Below are positions 2,138 through 9,625 of a stretch of 64,000 nucleotides of DNA, piece after piece. Both the position numbers and the translations under genes were made by a program. The notes beneath the pieces are model-generated. The model saw only the letters and a program-made list of their open reading frames with translations. It did not search any database and had not been told where the DNA came from. Source of the DNA: Marinobacter sp. LV10R510-11A (GTDB lineage Bacteria > Pseudomonadota > Gammaproteobacteria > Pseudomonadales > Oleiphilaceae); NCBI RefSeq assembly GCF_900215155.1, contig NZ_LT907980.1, forward strand, positions 3,906,001-3,970,000, read 5' to 3'. Position 1 is the first letter of the stretch; each line of letters opens with the position of its first letter.

Positions 2138-2151
2138 CTGACAAAGGTCAA
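2138..2151 (+). promoter_or_regulatory. Candidate ANR/DNR (FNR-type) box for ubiUV
   Basis: CTGAC-AAAG-GTCAA matches the TTGAT-N4-RTCAA pattern of FNR/ANR/DNR sites at 8 of 10 positions. Its centre (2144.5) is 41.5 bp upstream of a start point near 2186 that would be set by a -10-like TATGGT at 2174-2179. That is class II activator spacing, and there is no good -35, as expected. FNR control of ubiUVT is known in E. coli; here it is inferred. Confidence 0.5.
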
Positions 2152-2207
2152 TGTCCGGGGCAAGTGCCCGGCGTATGGTCTGTGGAACTTTTACGTGGAG
2201 AAAGCCC

Positions 2208-3203
2208 ATGGAACTTGTTTGCCCGGCCGGTAGCTTACCGGCACTGAAAACGGCAGTGGATAACGGTGCCGATGCCGTGTACTTGGGGTTTAAGGACAGC
2301 ACGAATGCCCGCCAGTTCGCAGGGCTCAACTTTAATGAAAGGCGAGCAGGCGAGGGCGTCGACTACGCCCATAGCAAAGGTGCCAGGGTATTCTGTGCCA
2401 TTAATACCTACCCGCAACCAGACGGTTGGGAAACTTGGAAATCGGCCGTAGACAGAGCCGCCGCCCTAGGGGTGGATGCGATTATCTTGGCCGACATGGG
2501 GCTGCTGGAATACGCCGCAAACAAGCACCCGCAGGTTAACCGGCATCTTTCAGTTCAGGGTTCGGCCACCAGCTACGAAGCTCTGCGCTTCTACAAAGAC
2601 AACTTTGATATCCGCCGTGCGGTGTTGCCACGGGTGTTGTCCATAGATCAGGTGCGCGGTGTTGCAAAGCACAGCCCGGTAGAGCTGGAGGTGTTTGCGT
2701 TTGGAAGCCTGTGCATCATGGCAGAAGGGCGCTGTTATCTCTCCTCCTACCTGACAGACGAATCTCCGAATACCCGTGGCGCCTGCTCGCCAGCCAAGGC
2801 TGTACGCTGGCAGGAAACCCCGAATGGCCTGGAATCCCGCCTTAATAATGTGCTTATCGATCGATACGGCAAAGGCGAATCTGCCGGCTATCCCACGTTG
2901 TGCAAAGGTCGCTTTGAAGTGGAAGGCAGTGTTTACCACGCCATCGAAGAGCCCGTCAGCCTGAATACTCTGGATCTGTTGCCAGAACTGAAGGAGCTGG
3001 GCATTAGCGCTGTGAAGATTGAAGGCCGTCAGCGTAGCCCGGCTTACATTGCCGATGTTGCCCGCACCTGGCGCCAAGCGCTGGATAGGTTGGATGCGGG
3101 TGCCGAGGGGTTTCGTGTGGACCCGGTTTGGAATAGCACGTTGGCGGGCCTGTCTGAAGGTGGTCTAACCACCCTCGGCGCCTATCACCGCAAATGGAAA
3201 TGA
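2208..3203 (+). CDS. ubiU: UbiU, O2-independent ubiquinone hydroxylation protein (U32 family)
   Basis: U32-family protein of 331 residues, the length of E. coli UbiU. With UbiV it forms a [4Fe-4S] heterodimer that hydroxylates ubiquinone precursors without oxygen, using prephenate as oxygen donor; UbiT is the accessory lipid-binding partner. The start chosen is the ATG at 2208, preceded by GGAG at 2197-2200 and giving the family N-terminus MELVCPAGSLPALKTA; an upstream in-frame start at 2151 would add 19 unlikely residues. The cluster cysteines are visible in CIMAEGRC, in RGACSP and in TLCKGRF. ubiV follows after 13 bp, so the two form an operon. A quinone route that works without O2 suits the nitrate and N2O respiration genes nearby. 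Confidence 0.93.
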   Translation: MELVCPAGSLPALKTAVDNGADAVYLGFKDSTNARQFAGLNFNERRAGEGVDYAHSKGARVFCAINTYPQPDGWETWKSAVDRAAALGVDAIILADMGLLEYAANKHPQVNRHLSVQGSATSYEALRFYKDNFDIRRAVLPRVLSIDQVRGVAKHSPVELEVFAFGSLCIMAEGRCYLSSYLTDESPNTRGACSPAKAVRWQETPNGLESRLNNVLIDRYGKGESAGYPTLCKGRFEVEGSVYHAIEEPVSLNTLDLLPELKELGISAVKIEGRQRSPAYIADVARTWRQALDRLDAGAEGFRVDPVWNSTLAGLSEGGLTTLGAYHRKWK

Positions 3204-3216
3204 GGCTGAAAAATCC

Positions 3217-4110
3217 ATGATGAAGCTCTCTCTAGGCCCGATTCTCTGGTTCTGGTCCAAACAAACCGTTTTTGATTTTTACGCCAACGCCGCCGAGTGG
3301 CCGGTTGATACGGTATATTTGGGAGAAACCGTGTGTTCCCGCCGACGCGAGCTGAGGCTGGCGGATTGGTTGGAGATTGCCGCTGTGCTCAAGGATTGCG
3401 GCAAGCAGGTGGTGCTCTCAACACAAACGCTGATTGAATCCGAAGCGGATTTGCGGGCCCTGCGCAAAATCTGCAGCCAGCAGGAGTATCTAGTAGAGGC
3501 TAATGATCAGAGCGCTCTACAGCTGGCCACTCAGAACAATCTGCCGTTTGTGACTGGCCCTTCCATGAACATCTACAACAGCGCAACCCTGAAACTGTTA
3601 GCAAAGCAGGGGTTGAAGGGCTGGAACTTACCGGTAGAGCTGGGCCGTGAAACCCTGCGCCAATTGATTGGTGAGTTGGAAGCGGAAGGGCTGGATTTAG
3701 CTGCAGAGGTTTTTGCCTGGGGCTTTTTGCCGTTGGCATGGTCGTCCCGCTGCTTTACCGCCCGGCATTACAACCTGCCCAAAGACAACTGCGAGTTCCG
3801 CTGTTTGCAGCACCCAGATGGTATGGAGCTGCGCTCCCGCGAATCCCAAGAGCTGTTTCGCCTTAACGGCACTTCTACTTTGTCTGGTGCTCGTTACGAC
3901 TTGATGCGGGAAATGCCGGATATGGCGCAAATGGGAGTGTCCACTGTACGCCTAAGCCCAGAGCATCAGGGCATGGATGAAGTGGTCCGCCGCTTTGATC
4001 AGGCGCGCCGTGGCGAAGCCCCAGCAACCGACCCGCTGCAGCTTGTTGAGGCGCCGCCTTGCAATGGTTACTGGTATGGAAGGCCGGGGATGGATTTGGT
4101 GCCTTCCTGA
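3217..4110 (+). CDS. ubiV: UbiV, O2-independent ubiquinone hydroxylation protein (U32 family)
   Basis: Second U32-family subunit, 297 residues (E. coli UbiV is about 292). It pairs with UbiU for anaerobic ubiquinone synthesis. Four cysteines sit where the UbiV [4Fe-4S] ligands are expected: one in ETVCSRRRE near residue 41 and a group in SRCFTARHYNLPKDNCEFRC. The start is the ATG at 3217, with GAGG at 3202-3205 just upstream; an ATG at 3220 is an alternative. It lacks the longer C-terminal domains found in U32 proteins involved in RNA modification, which supports UbiV over RlhA or TrhP. Cotranscribed with ubiU. The third partner, ubiT, is about 4.3 kb away on the other strand. Confidence 0.92.
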   Translation: MMKLSLGPILWFWSKQTVFDFYANAAEWPVDTVYLGETVCSRRRELRLADWLEIAAVLKDCGKQVVLSTQTLIESEADLRALRKICSQQEYLVEANDQSALQLATQNNLPFVTGPSMNIYNSATLKLLAKQGLKGWNLPVELGRETLRQLIGELEAEGLDLAAEVFAWGFLPLAWSSRCFTARHYNLPKDNCEFRCLQHPDGMELRSRESQELFRLNGTSTLSGARYDLMREMPDMAQMGVSTVRLSPEHQGMDEVVRRFDQARRGEAPATDPLQLVEAPPCNGYWYGRPGMDLVPS

Positions 4111-4161
4111 CGAAAAGGCATAAGTAGTAAAATATATGTTTTTTTGTTGAAACTCCTTTGA

Positions 4162-4208
4162 ATCGCGTATATAGTGTTTTTGTCTTGGTTTGCCACTATA
4201 TGTTGTGT
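4162..4208 (+). promoter_or_regulatory. Tandem NrdR boxes upstream of nrdD
   Basis: Two matches to the 16-bp NrdR operator (ACACTATATATAGTGT) lie exactly 31 bp apart, the usual three-helical-turn spacing. Box 2, CCACTATATGTTGTGT at 4193-4208, matches 13 of 16. Box 1, ATCGCGTATATAGTGT at 4162-4177, matches 11 of 16 with a perfect right half. NrdR is the ATP/dATP-responsive repressor of bacterial ribonucleotide reductase genes. Box 1 overlaps a possible -10 (GTATAT, 4167-4172), and box 2 lies inside the region transcribed into the riboswitch. Confidence 0.65.
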
Positions 4209-4362
4209 TTAGTGGCCGGGAATCCGGTAAGAGTCCGGAACTGACGCGCAGCGGTATTGGGGAACAAGCGTGGTAATGATGACACTGGCGCAAGCCGGGA
4301 AGTCGCCACGTAAGGCAGAGCCGAAAGGTTCGTGCCCCTGAGTCCGAAGACCTGCCAAGGCA
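4181..4362 (+). promoter_or_regulatory. Cobalamin (AdoCbl-type) riboswitch upstream of nrdD
   Basis: The leader carries the family signatures in order: GGGAATCCGGTAAGAGTCCGG (split about 4218-4238), a central GGAAGTCGCCACG region near 4297-4309, and the B12-box end GAGTCCGAAGACCTGCC at 4340-4356. P1 closes between TGTCTTGG (4181-4188) and CCAAGGCA (4355-4362), 8 pairs with one G-U. Cobalamin riboswitches upstream of class I or III ribonucleotide reductases are known in organisms that also have the B12-dependent class II enzyme, so that B12 turns off the alternative enzyme. No class II gene lies in this window. Confidence 0.9.
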
Positions 4363-4373
4363 AAAATACTGCA

Positions 4374-4482
4374 CCTTCGCGACTTAGGGTGAGCAGCTGG
4401 CTGATGCATGGGGCGATTTCCCGTGGATGGCCTCCTGTGTCCGCGAAGGGAAAATACCTGACGCGATTCCAGGAGGAACACC
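4374..4482 (+). promoter_or_regulatory. Riboswitch expression platform with Shine-Dalgarno sequestration
   Basis: Two mutually exclusive pairings can be drawn after the aptamer. CCTCCTG (4431-4437) is the exact complement of CAGGAGG (4470-4476), which contains the nrdD ribosome site. CCTTCGCG (4374-4381) is the exact complement of CGCGAAGG (4442-4449) and would enclose the anti-SD strand. Switching between them gives translational control. No T-run follows either hairpin, so a transcription terminator is less likely. The pairings are seen; the mechanism is inferred. Together with the riboswitch this accounts for the whole 4111-4482 gap. Confidence 0.55.
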
Positions 4483-6080
4483 ATGTCAGCCACTCCCGCA
4501 GCCTTCGAGCCAGTGAAACCATTTTTACTGGATATCTCTGCAACCGTCAGCGAGTACCTTCAACGTAGCGATTGGCGAGTAAATGCCAATGCCAATCAGG
4601 GTTACTCTCTGGGCGGCTTGATTCTGAATACCGCTGGCAAAGTTATCGCGAACTACTGGCTGAACGATGTTTACACCCAAGACATCGGCCAGGCGCACCG
4701 CGACGCAGACCTCCACATACACGATCTGGACATGCTCAGTGGCTACTGTGCCGGCTGGTCTTTGCGCACGTTGTTGCATGAAGGCCTGAACGGTGTGCCC
4801 GGAAAGGTAGAATCGGCGCCACCCAAGCATTTGTCGAGCGCCATCGGCCAGATGGTGAACTTTCTGGGCACCTTGCAAAACGAATGGGCGGGAGCTCAAG
4901 CCTTCAGCTCTTTCGATACCTATCTAGCGCCTTTCATCCGCAGGGATAACCTGAGTTACGAATCGGTACTTCAGTGTATTCAGGAGTTCGTCTACAACCT
5001 CAATGTGCCCTCGCGATGGGGCACCCAAACACCCTTTACTAACATTACGTTTGACTGGGTGTGCCCGGAAGATCTGCGGGAACAGATACCTGTCATCGCC
5101 GGAGAAGAAATGCCCGGCGCCTGTTTGAAATGACGGCCCGGTATGGCTTGCCGTACTTTCAAAATTTCCTGAACTCGGATCTTGAACCCAGCATGGTCCG
5201 CTCTATGTGTTGTCGGTTGCAGCTGGATTTGCGCGAGCTGCTCAAGCGTGGCAACGGCCTGTTTGGTTCAGCAGAACAAACCGGCTCTCTTGGCGTGGTA
5301 ACGGTTAATTGTGCTCGCCTGGGCTATCTCTACAAAGGGCGTAAGCAGGCGCTGTATGCGCGCCTGGATAAACTAATGGGGTTAGCCCGGGATAGCCTGG
5401 AAACGAAACGCCAAGTCATTGGCCAGCATATGGCGGAAGGCCTGCTGCCATATAGCCAGCGCTATCTGGGCACCCTGCGAAACCACTTTTCTACCATTGG
5501 CGTGAACGGTCTGAATGAAATGATCCGGAATTACTCGGACGATCAGCAGACCATTGCCACCGAATGGGGCAGGGCGTTTGCGCTGGAATTGCTGGATCAC
5601 GTTCGGGAGCGAATGAAGGAATACCAAGAGGCGACCGGCAATCTCTACAACCTGGAAGCAACCCCAGCAGAAGGCACCACCTACCGCTTTGCTAAGGAAG
5701 ATCAGAAGCGCTACCCGGATATTCTGCAGGCGGGCACGCACGATGCGCCCTATTACACTAATTCTAGTCAGCTACCCGTTGGCTTTACCGACGACCCCTT
5801 TGAAGCCCTAGATTTGCAGGACGAACTGCAAACCCGCTACACCGGCGGCACGGTACTGCATCTGTATATGCGAGAACGCATCAGCGATGCCACTACCTGT
5901 GCCCGGTTTGTTCGGCGGGTACTGGAGAACTACCGGCTGCCCTATATCACCGTAACGCCGACCTTCTCCATCTGCCCGGTGCATGGCTATCTCAACGGCG
6001 AGCATGAGTTCTGTCCGAAGTGTGATGAGTTACTAATGGCTGGCCAACCACTGCAAACAGCGGCTGCGGCTATTGCCTGA
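4483..6080 (+). pseudogene. nrdD: nrdD, class III anaerobic ribonucleotide reductase, broken by internal deletion and frameshift
   Basis: Large subunit of the anaerobic ribonucleoside-triphosphate reductase, which makes dNTPs without O2. The ATG at 4483 has a strong AGGAGG at 4471-4476. The first frame runs to a stop at 5133 after GEEMPGACLK. The second frame picks up at about 5118 with RRLFEMTARYGLPYFQNFL and ends at 6080. In the Pseudomonas-type enzymes as I recall them, about 50 residues separate the GEEMP and ERLFEM segments; here they are adjacent and out of frame, so about 150-170 bp are missing near 5113-5118. The active-site segment RSMCCRLQLDLRELLKRGNG and the C-terminal CPVH...CPKCD zinc-type motif remain. 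The glycyl-radical motif is absent from this frame and lies in the next ORF. As read, the gene cannot make a normal enzyme; an assembly error is possible. Confidence 0.85.
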
Positions 6081-6173
6081 ATTTCGGAGCATGGCTCCGA
6101 TATAGCCGGCAGGTGGCTGCTGACCAAGCCACCGGCCGGATTTTCCCGAGAAGAGAACGTTAAGGAGAACACC

Positions 6174-6320
6174 ATGGAAAACCAGAAGCTTCCCAATGAG
6201 CATCAACGCCAGCGCTGTGAGGTATGGACACGAGTGATGGGCTATCACCGACCCGTCTCTGCCTTCAACAAAGGTAAGCAGTCCGAACACCGCGAACGCA
6301 CCCACTTTAGGGAGCGTTGA
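6174..6320 (+). CDS. Separate glycyl-radical segment of class III ribonucleotide reductase (48 aa)
   Basis: A 48-residue ORF between nrdD and nrdG. It contains CEVWTRVMGYHRPVS, which matches the C-terminal glycyl-radical loop of NrdD (R-V-x-G-Y), with the candidate radical glycine at residue 23, followed by a conserved-looking FNKGKQSEHRER tail. It has its own ribosome site (AAGGAG, 6161-6166) and ATG at 6174. It starts 93 bp after the nrdD stop and ends one base before the nrdG ATG at 6322, so it is probably translated with nrdG. This means the radical domain is a free polypeptide, comparable in idea to the GrcA spare part for pyruvate formate-lyase. It may be a known split in relatives, or a product of nrdD decay. 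Confidence 0.75.
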   Translation: MENQKLPNEHQRQRCEVWTRVMGYHRPVSAFNKGKQSEHRERTHFRER

Positions 6321-6321
6321 T

Positions 6322-7026
6322 ATGCTTGCGGATAACCTGGTGATAGGTGGCATGGTAGCCTTTTCCACCGTTGATTATCCGCAACACTTGGCGACAACCC
6401 TGTTTCTGCAGGGTTGTCCTTGGCGTTGCCATTATTGCCATAACCCTCACCTGATACCCCAGCATTCAGATCACGACAACGTCACTTGGCAAAAGGTGTG
6501 TCAGCATCTTGAAGGGCGCCGAAACCTGTTGGATGCAGTGGTGTTCAGTGGCGGCGAACCCACCACTCAGAAAGCTCTTTTGCCTGCCCTTCAACAAACC
6601 CGAGAGATGGGCTTCAAAAATGCGTTGCATACCGGTGCACCTAAGCTGAGTTTGTTGAAACCCTTGCTACCCTGGCTTGATTGGGTGGGGTTGGACATTA
6701 AAGCTATGCCGACAGGCTATGAGGCCGTAACCACCACCCGCCGCTCCGGGCTCGAAAGCTGGGCCGCTATTGCGGAGCTGCAGCAGGCAGGAGTAGATTT
6801 CGAATGCAGGATGACCTGGCACCGGGCGCTGCATTCGTGGGAGCAAGTGGTGTCCATTGGCGAATTGCTGTCCTTGAGAGGGGTCTCGAAATTTGCGGTT
6901 CAGGTCGCTCGGGGGGAACAGATGCTCAACCAAGCTATTGGTGATGGTCGGGTTTGCGCGGAGGATAAGCGATTGGTGTGCGAGGCGTTGGAATCGAGTT
7001 TTGACGTTTTTGAGATGCGATCATGA
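6322..7026 (+). CDS. nrdG: Anaerobic ribonucleoside-triphosphate reductase activating protein NrdG
   Basis: Radical-SAM activase of 234 residues that generates the glycyl radical on NrdD. The cluster motif CPWRCHYCHN (CxxxCxxC) is at about residues 30-39, and the SAM-binding FSGGEPT at about 74-80. The length fits the NrdG family of Pseudomonas-type nrdDG operons, which is longer than the E. coli enzyme (154 aa). The ATG at 6322 follows the stop of the glycyl-radical ORF by one base. It is last in the nrd operon and converges on the MOSC gene, whose stop lies 12 bp beyond. An intact activase downstream of a broken nrdD suggests either a recent lesion or an assembly error in nrdD. Confidence 0.9.
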   Translation: MLADNLVIGGMVAFSTVDYPQHLATTLFLQGCPWRCHYCHNPHLIPQHSDHDNVTWQKVCQHLEGRRNLLDAVVFSGGEPTTQKALLPALQQTREMGFKNALHTGAPKLSLLKPLLPWLDWVGLDIKAMPTGYEAVTTTRRSGLESWAAIAELQQAGVDFECRMTWHRALHSWEQVVSIGELLSLRGVSKFAVQVARGEQMLNQAIGDGRVCAEDKRLVCEALESSFDVFEMRS

Positions 7027-7038
7027 TCGTGTGGCCTT

Positions 7039-7752
7039 TCAGGCATCTGGGATTGATATTTGGGCCGAACCAAATAACCGTCCCTCCCAGTTTTCGACAT
7101 GCTGTGTTTCAAGGCGTTGTTTCGCGAGCTGGCGAAGGTTGGGGGAGAGCTCTTTCATCTCCGCCATGCTTGTAAGGGCTTGCTGATCCATGGTGTTTTC
7201 ATAAAGCACAGACAACACTCGGCTTAGGGGCCAGTCTTCATGGGGTCGCTCCTTGAGTATCAGCGTGTCTTCCTTGCGAACCATGCCTGGCTGCAGAACC
7301 CTGTAGTACCACCCTGTTCTAAGGCTATTTTGTAGGCGACGGGCCATGTCCGGTATACCGAAGCGCAGATTCAGCCGCCAGCAGGGTTGGCGCGGCTGGG
7401 ATACCTGAATGATGGCCTCCCCAAGCGCAAAAACATCTCCGGCGCAAACATCGGATTCGGTAAACCCGTCAGTCACCAGGTTTTCACCAAACGCACCAGG
7501 CTGACAATGCTCTGATGCTGGCGTGGGAAGCTCGCGTCGTAACCGGGCGTAGTGGTCTGAGGCAAAATGATGCAACGCTTTTTCCGAGCCGCCATGGTGG
7601 CGTTTGTCGCCTTGCTGGTCATCACTTAGGCCATTTGCGCTGAGATAGGCGGAATCAATCTCCCGCTTGTGAATACCCGTTAGCGTTTCGGTACCCGCGA
7701 GCTTTTCCAAGCTGCCAATTCTGAGCTGCTTGATCACAATGCCATTTGCCAT
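7039..7752 (-). CDS. yiiM: MOSC-domain protein, YiiM family
   Basis: Cytosolic protein of 237 residues. The MOSC domain (about residues 40-165) includes QQGDKRHHGGSEKALH, PGAFGENL and the cysteine-bearing VSQPRQPCWRLN, followed by the C-terminal 3-alpha domain typical of YiiM. In E. coli YiiM acts with molybdenum cofactor to detoxify N-hydroxylated bases such as 6-hydroxylaminopurine; the conserved cysteine in QPRQPCWRL is the presumed Moco ligand. The ATG at 7752 has GGAG eight bases upstream. It lies 45 bp after the frameshifted membrane gene on the same strand. It uses molybdenum cofactor, as does NarG, but no shared regulation can be seen. Confidence 0.85.
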   Translation of the reverse strand: MANGIVIKQLRIGSLEKLAGTETLTGIHKREIDSAYLSANGLSDDQQGDKRHHGGSEKALHHFASDHYARLRRELPTPASEHCQPGAFGENLVTDGFTESDVCAGDVFALGEAIIQVSQPRQPCWRLNLRFGIPDMARRLQNSLRTGWYYRVLQPGMVRKEDTLILKERPHEDWPLSRVLSVLYENTMDQQALTSMAEMKELSPNLRQLAKQRLETQHVENWEGRLFGSAQISIPDA

Positions 7753-7797
7753 GCAGAATCTCCTAAGCCTTTTATGCCTCCTAAAAAGAGGGAACTG

Positions 7798-8242
7798 TCA
7801 CCAGATTGACATCATGGCACCGGTCCCAAGAACCAGCGACCCGCCCACCTCAGCTAGAATCAGAGCAATCATAAAGCCGTGAATCATCCAAGACGGCAAT
7901 GTCATGGCCCCCTAAACGGTGCGGTTTGCGTAACTGGTTGCTGGTGTCGCGCAGTACGCCATGGATGATATACGTGCCAATAGCCAAAGCGAAAAACCCC
8001 AAAGCGCATAGTGCGCCCAGAGTATTCAGCCATTCCGGATACACGCTGTGGCTGGCAAACCAGCCTAGTAGCACGGCGGCAAAGCTGTACATGAGGGAGC
8101 TGCGGTGGGCAATGTCCACGTACCTAGGCGCTGCTGCTTTCGGGCTGTTGGCCATGCACCAGTATTTCCAGATTCCGGTTAACAGCCCGGTCATAAAGAA
8201 AATAAAGGCAGCGGTTAGGCAGAGTTTTTCGGCCAGTGTCAT
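7798..8242 (-). pseudogene. Four-TM membrane protein of unknown function, frameshifted at a C5 tract
   Basis: The upstream frame encodes three hydrophobic segments and GTYIIHGVLRDTSNQL, then ends in a polar tail (HDIAVLDDSRLYDC) at 7850. In the next frame the same DNA encodes WMIHGFMIALILAEVGGSLV and a short tail ending in a TGA at 7798-7800, a convincing fourth membrane helix. Removing one base from the C5 run at 7908-7912 joins the two at ...HRLGAMTLPSW. A start at 8242 (MTLAEKLC) or 8260 is possible. Histidines at membrane ends (AHRSSLMY, IHGVLRD, IHGF) could bind metal or heme; I do not recognise the family. Homopolymer sequencing error is as likely as a true lesion. Confidence 0.6.
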
Positions 8243-8376
8243 TATGTTAGATCCATCCATTCTGCGCGCTCATTACAATAGTCCGTATTGGCTTCTGTTT
8301 AGAGGTTTGAGGTGTTCATTTTCAAACCATCTCACAAGGCAGTAGGGCTTTGATATGACTCCAGAAGCATAAGGCT

Positions 8377-8871
8377 TTAAAAGAAAAGCAATTGACGGAT
8401 ATTAAAATCCCATTCCAGGCTGTCCAGAAGGTTTTTCAAGGCAAGCCCCAGCTCTGTATCCCCTTCAATCATCAGGCGCCGTTGGAAAAAGAGTTGATCT
8501 GGATCCTGCTGGCGAGCAGAGAGAGTTTTGAACGCAGAGAGAGAGCCGCGAATAGTGGCTTCACCGGGGCCATCTAGCACCCGGAGCCGGCCTGCCCAAA
8601 AACCGAACGTGATGCCGGGGTGGCCCCCGTTTACTTCCAGCCGAATGCGACGGTCCTCAAAATCGTCAAACTCACCCTCGGCGATGGCTTCGGCAAAGAT
8701 TCGGTTGAGGGGCGCTTCTGCAACCAGTTGTTTTATCGGCATCGGAATAGAGCGGTCGATGGCCTCAAACAAAGGCGTTGGCGAGGGCAGGTATTCGCAA
8801 AGCAAGGCAAGAGCATCACTGACCAGGGGTTTGGCTTGCAGTGGAAGGGCAGCAGGCAGCGGGAAGGCCAT
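8377..8871 (-). CDS. ubiT: UbiT, SCP2-domain accessory factor for anaerobic ubiquinone synthesis
   Basis: Protein of 164 residues with an SCP2-like lipid-binding fold: short N-terminal helices (LCEYLPSPTPLFEAIDRSIP), then NRIFAEAIAEGEFDDFEDRRIRLEV (two pieces, about residues 55-80) and the hydrophobic-cavity strand region ending LMIEGDTELGLALKNLLDSL. UbiT binds polyprenylated ubiquinone intermediates and is needed with UbiU-UbiV for O2-independent synthesis. The start is the ATG at 8871, with GGAG seven bases upstream. It lies 70 bp downstream of narL on the same strand, so it may be read with narXL. E. coli ubiT is divergent from ubiUV; here it is separated by the nrd locus. Confidence 0.88.
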   Translation of the reverse strand: MAFPLPAALPLQAKPLVSDALALLCEYLPSPTPLFEAIDRSIPMPIKQLVAEAPLNRIFAEAIAEGEFDDFEDRRIRLEVNGGHPGITFGFWAGRLRVLDGPGEATIRGSLSAFKTLSARQQDPDQLFFQRRLMIEGDTELGLALKNLLDSLEWDFNIRQLLFF

Positions 8872-8941
8872 AATCAACTCCGGGCAGTGTATTCAGGCTG
8901 CCCAGAGTAACCAAAGTTGGCGCTGTTTGATTTGATATAGC

Positions 8942-9625
8942 TCAGGCCTTGTGCAGGCCTCCTTCCACCGCCCATACGGCGACCTCGACCCGCGAGCGCA
9001 GGTTGAGTTTTTTCAGCAGGTGTTTTACGTGCACTTTTACTGTGCCGTCGCTGATGTCCAGCTTGCGACCGATCATCTTATTAGAAAGGCCTTCAGCAAT
9101 CAGCCGCAGAATATCTTTTTCCCGCGGGGTCAGGCTGTCGAAATCCGGGCGCGAAGCTTGTTGCGGCTTGTTGGAGCGCAAAGCCTCGGCCAGAAGGATG
9201 GTCAGCCGATCACTGATAACCATTTTGCCCACAGCAGCCTGGCGCAGCTGGGCAATCATGTCCTCCGGCTCCATGTCCTTCAGAAGGTAACCGTCGGCGC
9301 CGGCGCGTAGAGCAGCGACCACGTCGTCTTCTTGATCCGACACGGTGAACATAATGATGCGGGAGCTTATGTTCAGTTCGCGCAGTTTTTTCAACGCATC
9401 AATGCCGCTGACTTCCGGCATATTGAGATCCATCAAGATGAGGTCGGGCTCAAGCTCGGTCGCCAGACGAATCCCGTCAGTGGCGTTGCTGGCCTCACCA
9501 GCCACAGCCATGTCACTCTCCATCTCAATGAGTTGTTTGATACCTTGACGCAACAGCGGGTGGTCGTCGATCAGCAATATGCTTGCGGGTGCATCGGACG
9601 GTATATCGGACGGTGTATCGGACAT
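8942..9625 (-). CDS. narL: Nitrate/nitrite response regulator NarL
   Basis: Response regulator of 227 residues. The receiver domain (about residues 15-130) shows the acidic pocket DD in LLIDDHP, phosphoacceptor Asp in [10 protein letters not shown], and Lys in [11 protein letters not shown] LuxR/NarL-type helix-turn-helix follows ([19 protein letters not shown], with [18 protein letters not shown] as recognition region). Phosphorylated by NarX, encoded 63 bp upstream on the same strand, it should bind 7-2-7 heptamer pairs; a near-consensus pair lies upstream of narG. The N-terminus has an unusual near-repeat [13 protein letters not shown], reflected in the DNA as repeated TATCGGACGGTG units. 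Confidence 0.93.

Follow-up and report, generated by a model that had tools for sequence, protein, structure and literature searches.

A separately encoded glycyl-radical loop points to a naturally split class III ribonucleotide reductase in Marinobacter and many other proteobacteria

Does a short open reading frame (ORF) between nrdD and nrdG of Marinobacter sp. LV10R510-11A encode a working part of the anaerobic (class III) ribonucleotide reductase (RNR), or is it the remnant of a gene in decay? The ORF lies at positions 6174..6320 (+ strand) of the window, by which we mean the whole 64,000-nucleotide stretch of DNA analysed, and its 48-aa product, MENQKLPNEHQRQRCEVWTRVMGYHRPVSAFNKGKQSEHRERTHFRER, includes the motif RVMGYHRPVS. 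An earlier note had described this product as a free 48-residue glycyl-radical protein with its own ribosome site, at a distance of 93 bp from the nrdD stop and with coupling to nrdG, and all of these coordinates are correct. The nrdD stop ends at 6080 and the small ORF begins 93 bp downstream, a Shine-Dalgarno (SD) sequence, AAGGAG, is found at 6162..6167 (+), and the stop of the small ORF (ending at 6320) is separated by 1 bp from the ATG of nrdG at 6322. Very probably the locus represents a naturally split class III RNR, in which the small protein would act as a subunit in trans and which is probably inactive in this strain.

The small ORF matches positions 529-562 of the 562 positions of the Pfam family PF13597 (NRDD, E 1.8e-9), and its score of 37.3 bits against a cut-off of 26.2 identifies it as a radical loop of this family. 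At E <= 0.001, it matched no profile besides PF13597, the PFL-type glycine radical domain included. The preceding ORF (5061-6080) covers positions 223-528 of the same profile, and no position is absent between the two ORFs, since one ends at 528 and the other starts at 529. The putative radical glycine codon (Gly23, 6240..6242, +) is invariant in alignments of 6 and 23 rows. Purifying selection acts on the small ORF, with dN values of 0.027-0.045 and dS values of 0.85-2.66 between the window and four congeners.

With the small ORF as the query, seven of 58 genomes gave a match, comprising the window's own copy, five free short ORFs and one match within a 649-aa frame. In the genus NrdD is patchy, and of 36 relatives from the same genus only two had a small-ORF match. 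Species genomes, when scanned, yielded at least 577 relatives of the small ORF, and the best 80 of these in named loci comprised 78 split arrangements and two fused ones, from MAGs of Obscuribacterales and Maricaulis; because the named loci were fetched with split-form patterns, this ratio overstates the share of the split form, and fused members are also common. Split loci were found in Pseudomonas, Stutzerimonas, Halomonas, Billgrantia and Kangiella, as well as in Microbulbifer, Nitrincola, Ectothiorhodospira, Propionivibrio and Oxalobacter. Plasmid pHG1 of Cupriavidus necator H16 encodes an NrdD of 676 aa followed by a 66-aa "nrdD" product and NrdG.

A count free of bias toward the split form was obtained with the whole NRDD profile and sorted by hand, revealing NrdD in 57 of the 390 genomes of the order. 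NrdD ended before the loop in 32 of the 57, and every one of these 32 contained the small ORF; they include the broken NrdD of the window and G126, a MAG contig reading UGA as glycine. The other 25 encode an uninterrupted NrdD, and one of them (G238) has a separate small copy elsewhere. In the genomes of the same order without NrdD, the small ORF was found in none of 333, as cross-counted by hand. In a large protein set, searched for proteins of up to 84 residues, 1,758 clusters of short homologues were obtained (E <= 1e-3), far beyond chance, including one cluster (P0047) named Pseudomonas aeruginosa, a species known here from the small protein alone. Many of the small proteins are already labelled as anaerobic RNR by NCBI; it seems that the sequence has been annotated while the split arrangement has gone unremarked. 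Thus, the same small ORF, for which the earlier note had suggested a search in relatives, occurs across many genera, and both the named loci (78 of the best 80) and the genomes of the order (32 of 57 with NrdD) strongly support the natural split form that it had offered as one of two readings.

In the G126 contig (L135, 2987-5396 of G126:C163), nrdD and the small ORF are open only with UGA read as a residue. By alignment this residue is glycine (as in code 25), and the radical glycine codon itself is UGA. This contig is probably a contaminant from a UGA-recoding lineage, which has the split form too.

In the split loci in which the motif was found, NrdD stops 8-37 residues past CPKC and contains no loop. 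The fused Maricaulis protein was modelled with AlphaFold (pLDDT 79, pTM 0.83; nearest solved structures, class III RNRs), and in this model the break of the split homologues falls within or close to the coil that joins the post-CPKC helix (566-575) to the strand ahead of the Gly loop (591-596). In our reading, NrdD of the split form holds the catalytic barrel, a zinc ribbon at its C-terminus and, in some cases, an ATP-cone, whereas the last ~50 residues, the glycyl-radical loop, come from the separate gene translated beside the NrdG activase. The peptide would dock in the NrdD barrel like a tethered loop, and NrdG would take the hydrogen from the peptide's glycine, acting on the peptide while free or on its loop once swung out of the complex, after which the radical would move to the finger-loop cysteine. 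Since the join is not covalent, it is conceivable that a peptide cut at its glycine by O2 is replaced without remaking NrdD. These steps of assembly, activation and exchange are inferred. In known class III enzymes, the radical domain has been described as flipping out of the core for NrdG (PMC12662201) and as mobile in the P. copri enzyme (PMC11226230), and in the S. thermophilus enzyme it is ordered with both ATP and dATP, which argues against a regulatory role of mobility (PMC12662201). A loop that leaves and re-enters the barrel could well work untethered.

Functional support is indirect and comes from genetics in two species, one with the split locus and one in which the small protein occurs. 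The nrdDG genes of C. necator H16 were reported to be essential for complete denitrification (PMC2864759, citing Siedow et al. 1999), and deletion of nrdD in P. aeruginosa strongly lowered anaerobic growth, with nrdDG cloned for complementation (PMC4860495). A separate radical peptide is not mentioned in the excerpts of either paper available here (PMC2864759 and PMC4860495).

The free peptide might mainly be a repair part of the GrcA type, used after O2 damage, and not a standing subunit. In principle, this would resemble YfiD/GrcA and T4 Y06I, which restore O2-cut PFL (PMC8683613), and the stand-alone versions found in viral contigs without a visible NrdD catalytic part could be taken in its favour. 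However, the NrdD proteins of split loci have no glycine loop of their own, so the peptide would be needed for any activity and repair could be only an added benefit; a mainly repairing role is accordingly improbable. The small protein would, for the same reason, be no optional spare but an obligate subunit. The likeness to GrcA drawn in the earlier note is apt for a possible mode of action, but does not extend to the idea of a back-up for an enzyme that has its own loop.

That the whole locus is decaying, with the split itself a pseudogenisation step in which a recent stop or frameshift freed the C-terminus, is suggested by the state of the catalytic gene in the window, where the small gene is intact and its large partner is broken. 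The N-terminal piece of nrdD (4483..5133, +, PF13597 positions 2-173) ends in out-of-frame codons past a deletion, and the C-terminal piece (5061..6080, +) is in another frame and is homologous from about 5112. Compared to five congeners (G018, G020, G336, G406 and G179), 154 bp are missing near 5109, a size that was worked out by hand from alignment coordinates and is identical in all five comparisons; the junction (5109..5114, +) has about 6 bp common to both flanks. The frame is lost, and NrdD is spread over two frames as a result of this deletion. The C-terminal piece retains the SMCCR Cys finger loop and a zinc-site-like motif, CPVH...CPKC (5973..6023, +), which aligns with its T. maritima NrdD counterpart and stays with NrdD, so that a catalytic subunit is encoded next to the small ORF, though by a broken gene. 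The activase is there as well, with nrdG (6322..7026, +), a radical SAM protein gene, adjoining the small ORF and matching TIGR02495 (NrdG2) with 160 bits against a threshold of 131.15. Thus, the large ORF does have the CPVH...CPKC motif and no radical site, as had been noticed earlier, but it covers no more than the C-terminal portion of the catalytic gene.

Decay could also draw on the class I and class II RNRs (NrdA and NrdJ) encoded in the same genome, which offer a fallback. As the cause of the split, however, it is refuted. The five congeners have an uninterrupted NrdD of 575-614 codons plus a separate small ORF (in G018 the two ORFs overlap by a few bases), and the split is common to them and to many genera. 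In-frame fusion of the segment to NrdD in close relatives, named in the earlier note as the sign of a local mutation, was not seen among these five inspected congeners, and fused members of the subfamily occur in more distant taxa; a local frameshift behind the split is rejected, since congeners with uninterrupted NrdD are split too. The small ORF, purifying selection on which was noted above, shows none of the marks of a pseudogene fragment (relaxed selection, a missing start of its own, absence from relatives), and such ORFs have their own SD sequences. The deletion is a separate event and a recent one, because the broken pieces of nrdD still show dN/dS values of 0.023-0.045 against three congeners, ratios that are rough with dS near saturation. 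Decay of the whole locus is thus very unlikely, and holds for the catalytic ORF of the window strain only. Natural split and two-step decay, which the earlier note had set against each other, are not alternatives here: the split is natural and the catalytic gene was broken independently. With nrdD broken by the deletion and no second NrdD found in the strain's genome by a search with the NRDD profile, class III RNR has probably been lost or inactivated in this strain.

The split form is also distinguished by the way in which the small gene is arranged and started. A strong SD sequence precedes the ATG nearest to the motif in 68 of the 78 split loci, compared to 1.3% of 1,806 control ATGs from the body of NrdD. 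The frame offset of the small ORF relative to NrdD is 0, 1 and 2 in 21, 29 and 28 of these loci, respectively, with a median gap of 34 nt between the ORFs. A start of nrdG was found in 71 of the 78; it lies -30 to +20 nt from the small stop in 60 of the 71 and overlaps it by 4 nt in 40, although these counts lean toward tight coupling because the start codon closest to the small stop was chosen. In one genome (G753, contig C4), the small gene and nrdG are located at 33.9-32.9 kb and nrdD at 24.5-22.5 kb, 8.4 kb apart, and the interval contains seven longer ORFs, all on the opposite strand. Variable frame offsets, strong SD sequences and the separation in this one genome together demonstrate that the small ORF is a separate gene. 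Recoding (frameshift, read-through or bypassing) that joins the two ORFs into a single chain, with no free protein at all, would suit their adjacency in the 78 loci, but it is hardly credible given the spread of frame offsets over 0, 1 and 2 and the strong SD plus ATG in 68 of 78, and it cannot join the G753 pair across 8.4 kb past opposite-strand genes.

By eye, the intervening genes of G753 (L264, G753:C4:20500-34800) resemble ubiUVT and include a Crp-family regulator, and an unrelated, ArsR-like gene follows nrdD. In the window, nrdDG lies in an anaerobic-growth cluster (2151-9625) with ubiU (2151-3203, +) and ubiV (3217-4110, +) on one side and UbiT (8377-8877, -) and a NarL-like regulator (8942-9625, -) on the other. 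The ORF at 7039-7752 has a sole NCBIfam match, 6-hydroxyaminopurine reductase, at 164 bits, which is below the cut-off of 294. A cobalamin riboswitch (RF00174, 4169..4373, +, 90.6 bits with a gathering threshold of 31.5) is positioned upstream of nrdD, and the genome also encodes the B12-dependent NrdJ; B12 may switch class III off under conditions that let class II work.

Other NrdDs of the same subfamily, among them those of Maricaulis, Marinicauda, Halorhodospira and Actinomyces, have the loop fused. When the catalytic parts of 34 split and 26 fused proteins were placed in one tree, the forms were interleaved, and these 60 rows do not support a single origin of the split. Parsimony gives eight changes of state, and at least two are forced by well-supported branches, so the split/fused state has changed at least twice; the tree is a quick search with SH-aLRT support only, L135 and L220 form long branches, and sampling is uneven, with 23 of the 26 fused rows chosen among the top hits to a single fused C-terminus. 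In this tree, the NrdD of a Chloroflexota-labelled MAG locus (L084) sits among Rhodocyclaceae, which probably reflects mis-binning of the contig or a transfer. In a Chlamydiae MAG, the fused NrdD P0137 has a partly tandem-repeated radical-loop segment with two RVMGY motifs.

Relatives of the small peptide are also found in viruses. A scan of viral contigs identified 116, and NrdD was nearby in one of the best 80. When 50 of those 80 records, which may be fragments, were searched whole, 49 contained the small match only and one a split NrdD. Eight of ten neighbouring proteins matched PHROGs, including portal, terminase, head protease, endolysin and tape-measure proteins. The radical glycine is present in 78 of 78 alignable viral sequences (with G, A, S and T permitted at the site, which the search patterns did not cover) and in two further sequences cut at the contig end. 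The viral ORF L155 (AlphaFold pLDDT 57) and 32 database homologues have an N-terminal segment with four conserved cysteines, and several other viral ORFs resemble it; in some stand-alone phage copies this segment may replace the NrdD zinc ribbon. The family phrog_4132 was matched by all seven viral peptides tested and by the window peptide. Among 50,697 phage records, one to three matched, weakly, including the ANMV-1 virus, in which a 144-residue ORF is already named RNR. PADLOC returned nothing for three proteins.

These viral copies raise the possibility, which we regard as tentative, that the radical loop of class III RNR is an expendable and exchangeable cassette, a ~50-residue peptide swapped after an O2 cut and traded between cells and phages, with phage copies re-arming anaerobic dNTP synthesis of the host. 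If true, the cassette would be a spare part of the kind that has been speculated for other glycyl radical enzymes in the PFL field (PMC8683613). In G238, the one host found with such a copy, a stand-alone NrdD-type radical-loop ORF (L133, 5568-5798 of G238:C1) lies in a prophage-like region with a reverse transcriptase and a tape measure gene, and the segment rich in cysteines located ahead of the loop in phage relatives is here in another frame. A role of this copy as a spare for the host NrdD is not supported by this host: the host protein is fused and belongs to a distant subfamily (21.6% identity), which speaks against the viral copy serving it there. When 349 genomes of the phylum were searched for further prophage copies with the phage-type alignment, 13 matches came up, none of them shown to be prophage. 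Eight (G000, G051, G055, G070, G107, G202, G301 and G753) are small ORFs in genomes with split NrdD, three (G716, G630 and G659) have NrdD adjoining, and two (G494 and G572) are within long frames.

In the open-access literature, so far as its available text extends, the radical loop of class III enzymes is the C-terminal end of NrdD, buried in the barrel, and no class III RNR with this loop as a separate protein was found; an earlier description in subscription papers is conceivable. The split form concerns genera such as Pseudomonas, Stutzerimonas, Halomonas, Cupriavidus and Paracoccus, where the large NrdD is seen without a radical site, and in many proteobacteria the radical tip is a separate protein of ~50 residues and in principle replaceable. 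A free loop of this size would provide a minimal system for target recognition by NrdG and for asking whether activation takes place inside the barrel or outside it, and whether swapping a small part can repair O2 damage. It also suggests a candidate function for the unlabelled phage family phrog_4132.

Several known systems resemble the split enzyme in part. The fused class III NrdDs (PRK08270/NF006126), such as those of the Maricaulis MAG (L092) and an Actinomyces oris plasmid (L127), have the same catalytic domain, with 69-75% identity of the catalytic parts of L082, L092 and L127 to the split NrdD of L009, and share the zinc-site motif, the radical-loop sequence and the adjoining NrdG; they differ in carrying the radical loop within NrdD, via a linker after CPKC. 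phrog_4132 has 179 positions and no assigned function; the window peptide and the seven viral peptides match positions ~115-157, and the first ~115 are unmatched. The class II NrdJa/NrdJb of Pseudomonas aeruginosa is also an RNR of two assembling ORFs, but it is B12-dependent and has another break point (PMC4009431, PMC4860495). The other split RNR genes in print are phage genes, among which nrdD is the one most often affected, and in phages such as Aeromonas phage phiAS4 it has more than one coding piece; these breaks, found in single phages, have been attributed to introns, inteins, homing endonucleases or events of unknown kind, and the available text of this report does not mention a separate radical loop (PMC3653736). 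GrcA/YfiD of E. coli and Y06I of T4 are likewise small separate proteins that supply a glycyl radical loop to a large enzyme, with phage-borne versions of both kinds. However, GrcA acts on PFL, as a back-up for an enzyme with a loop of its own, whereas the partner here is an NrdD that lacks one.
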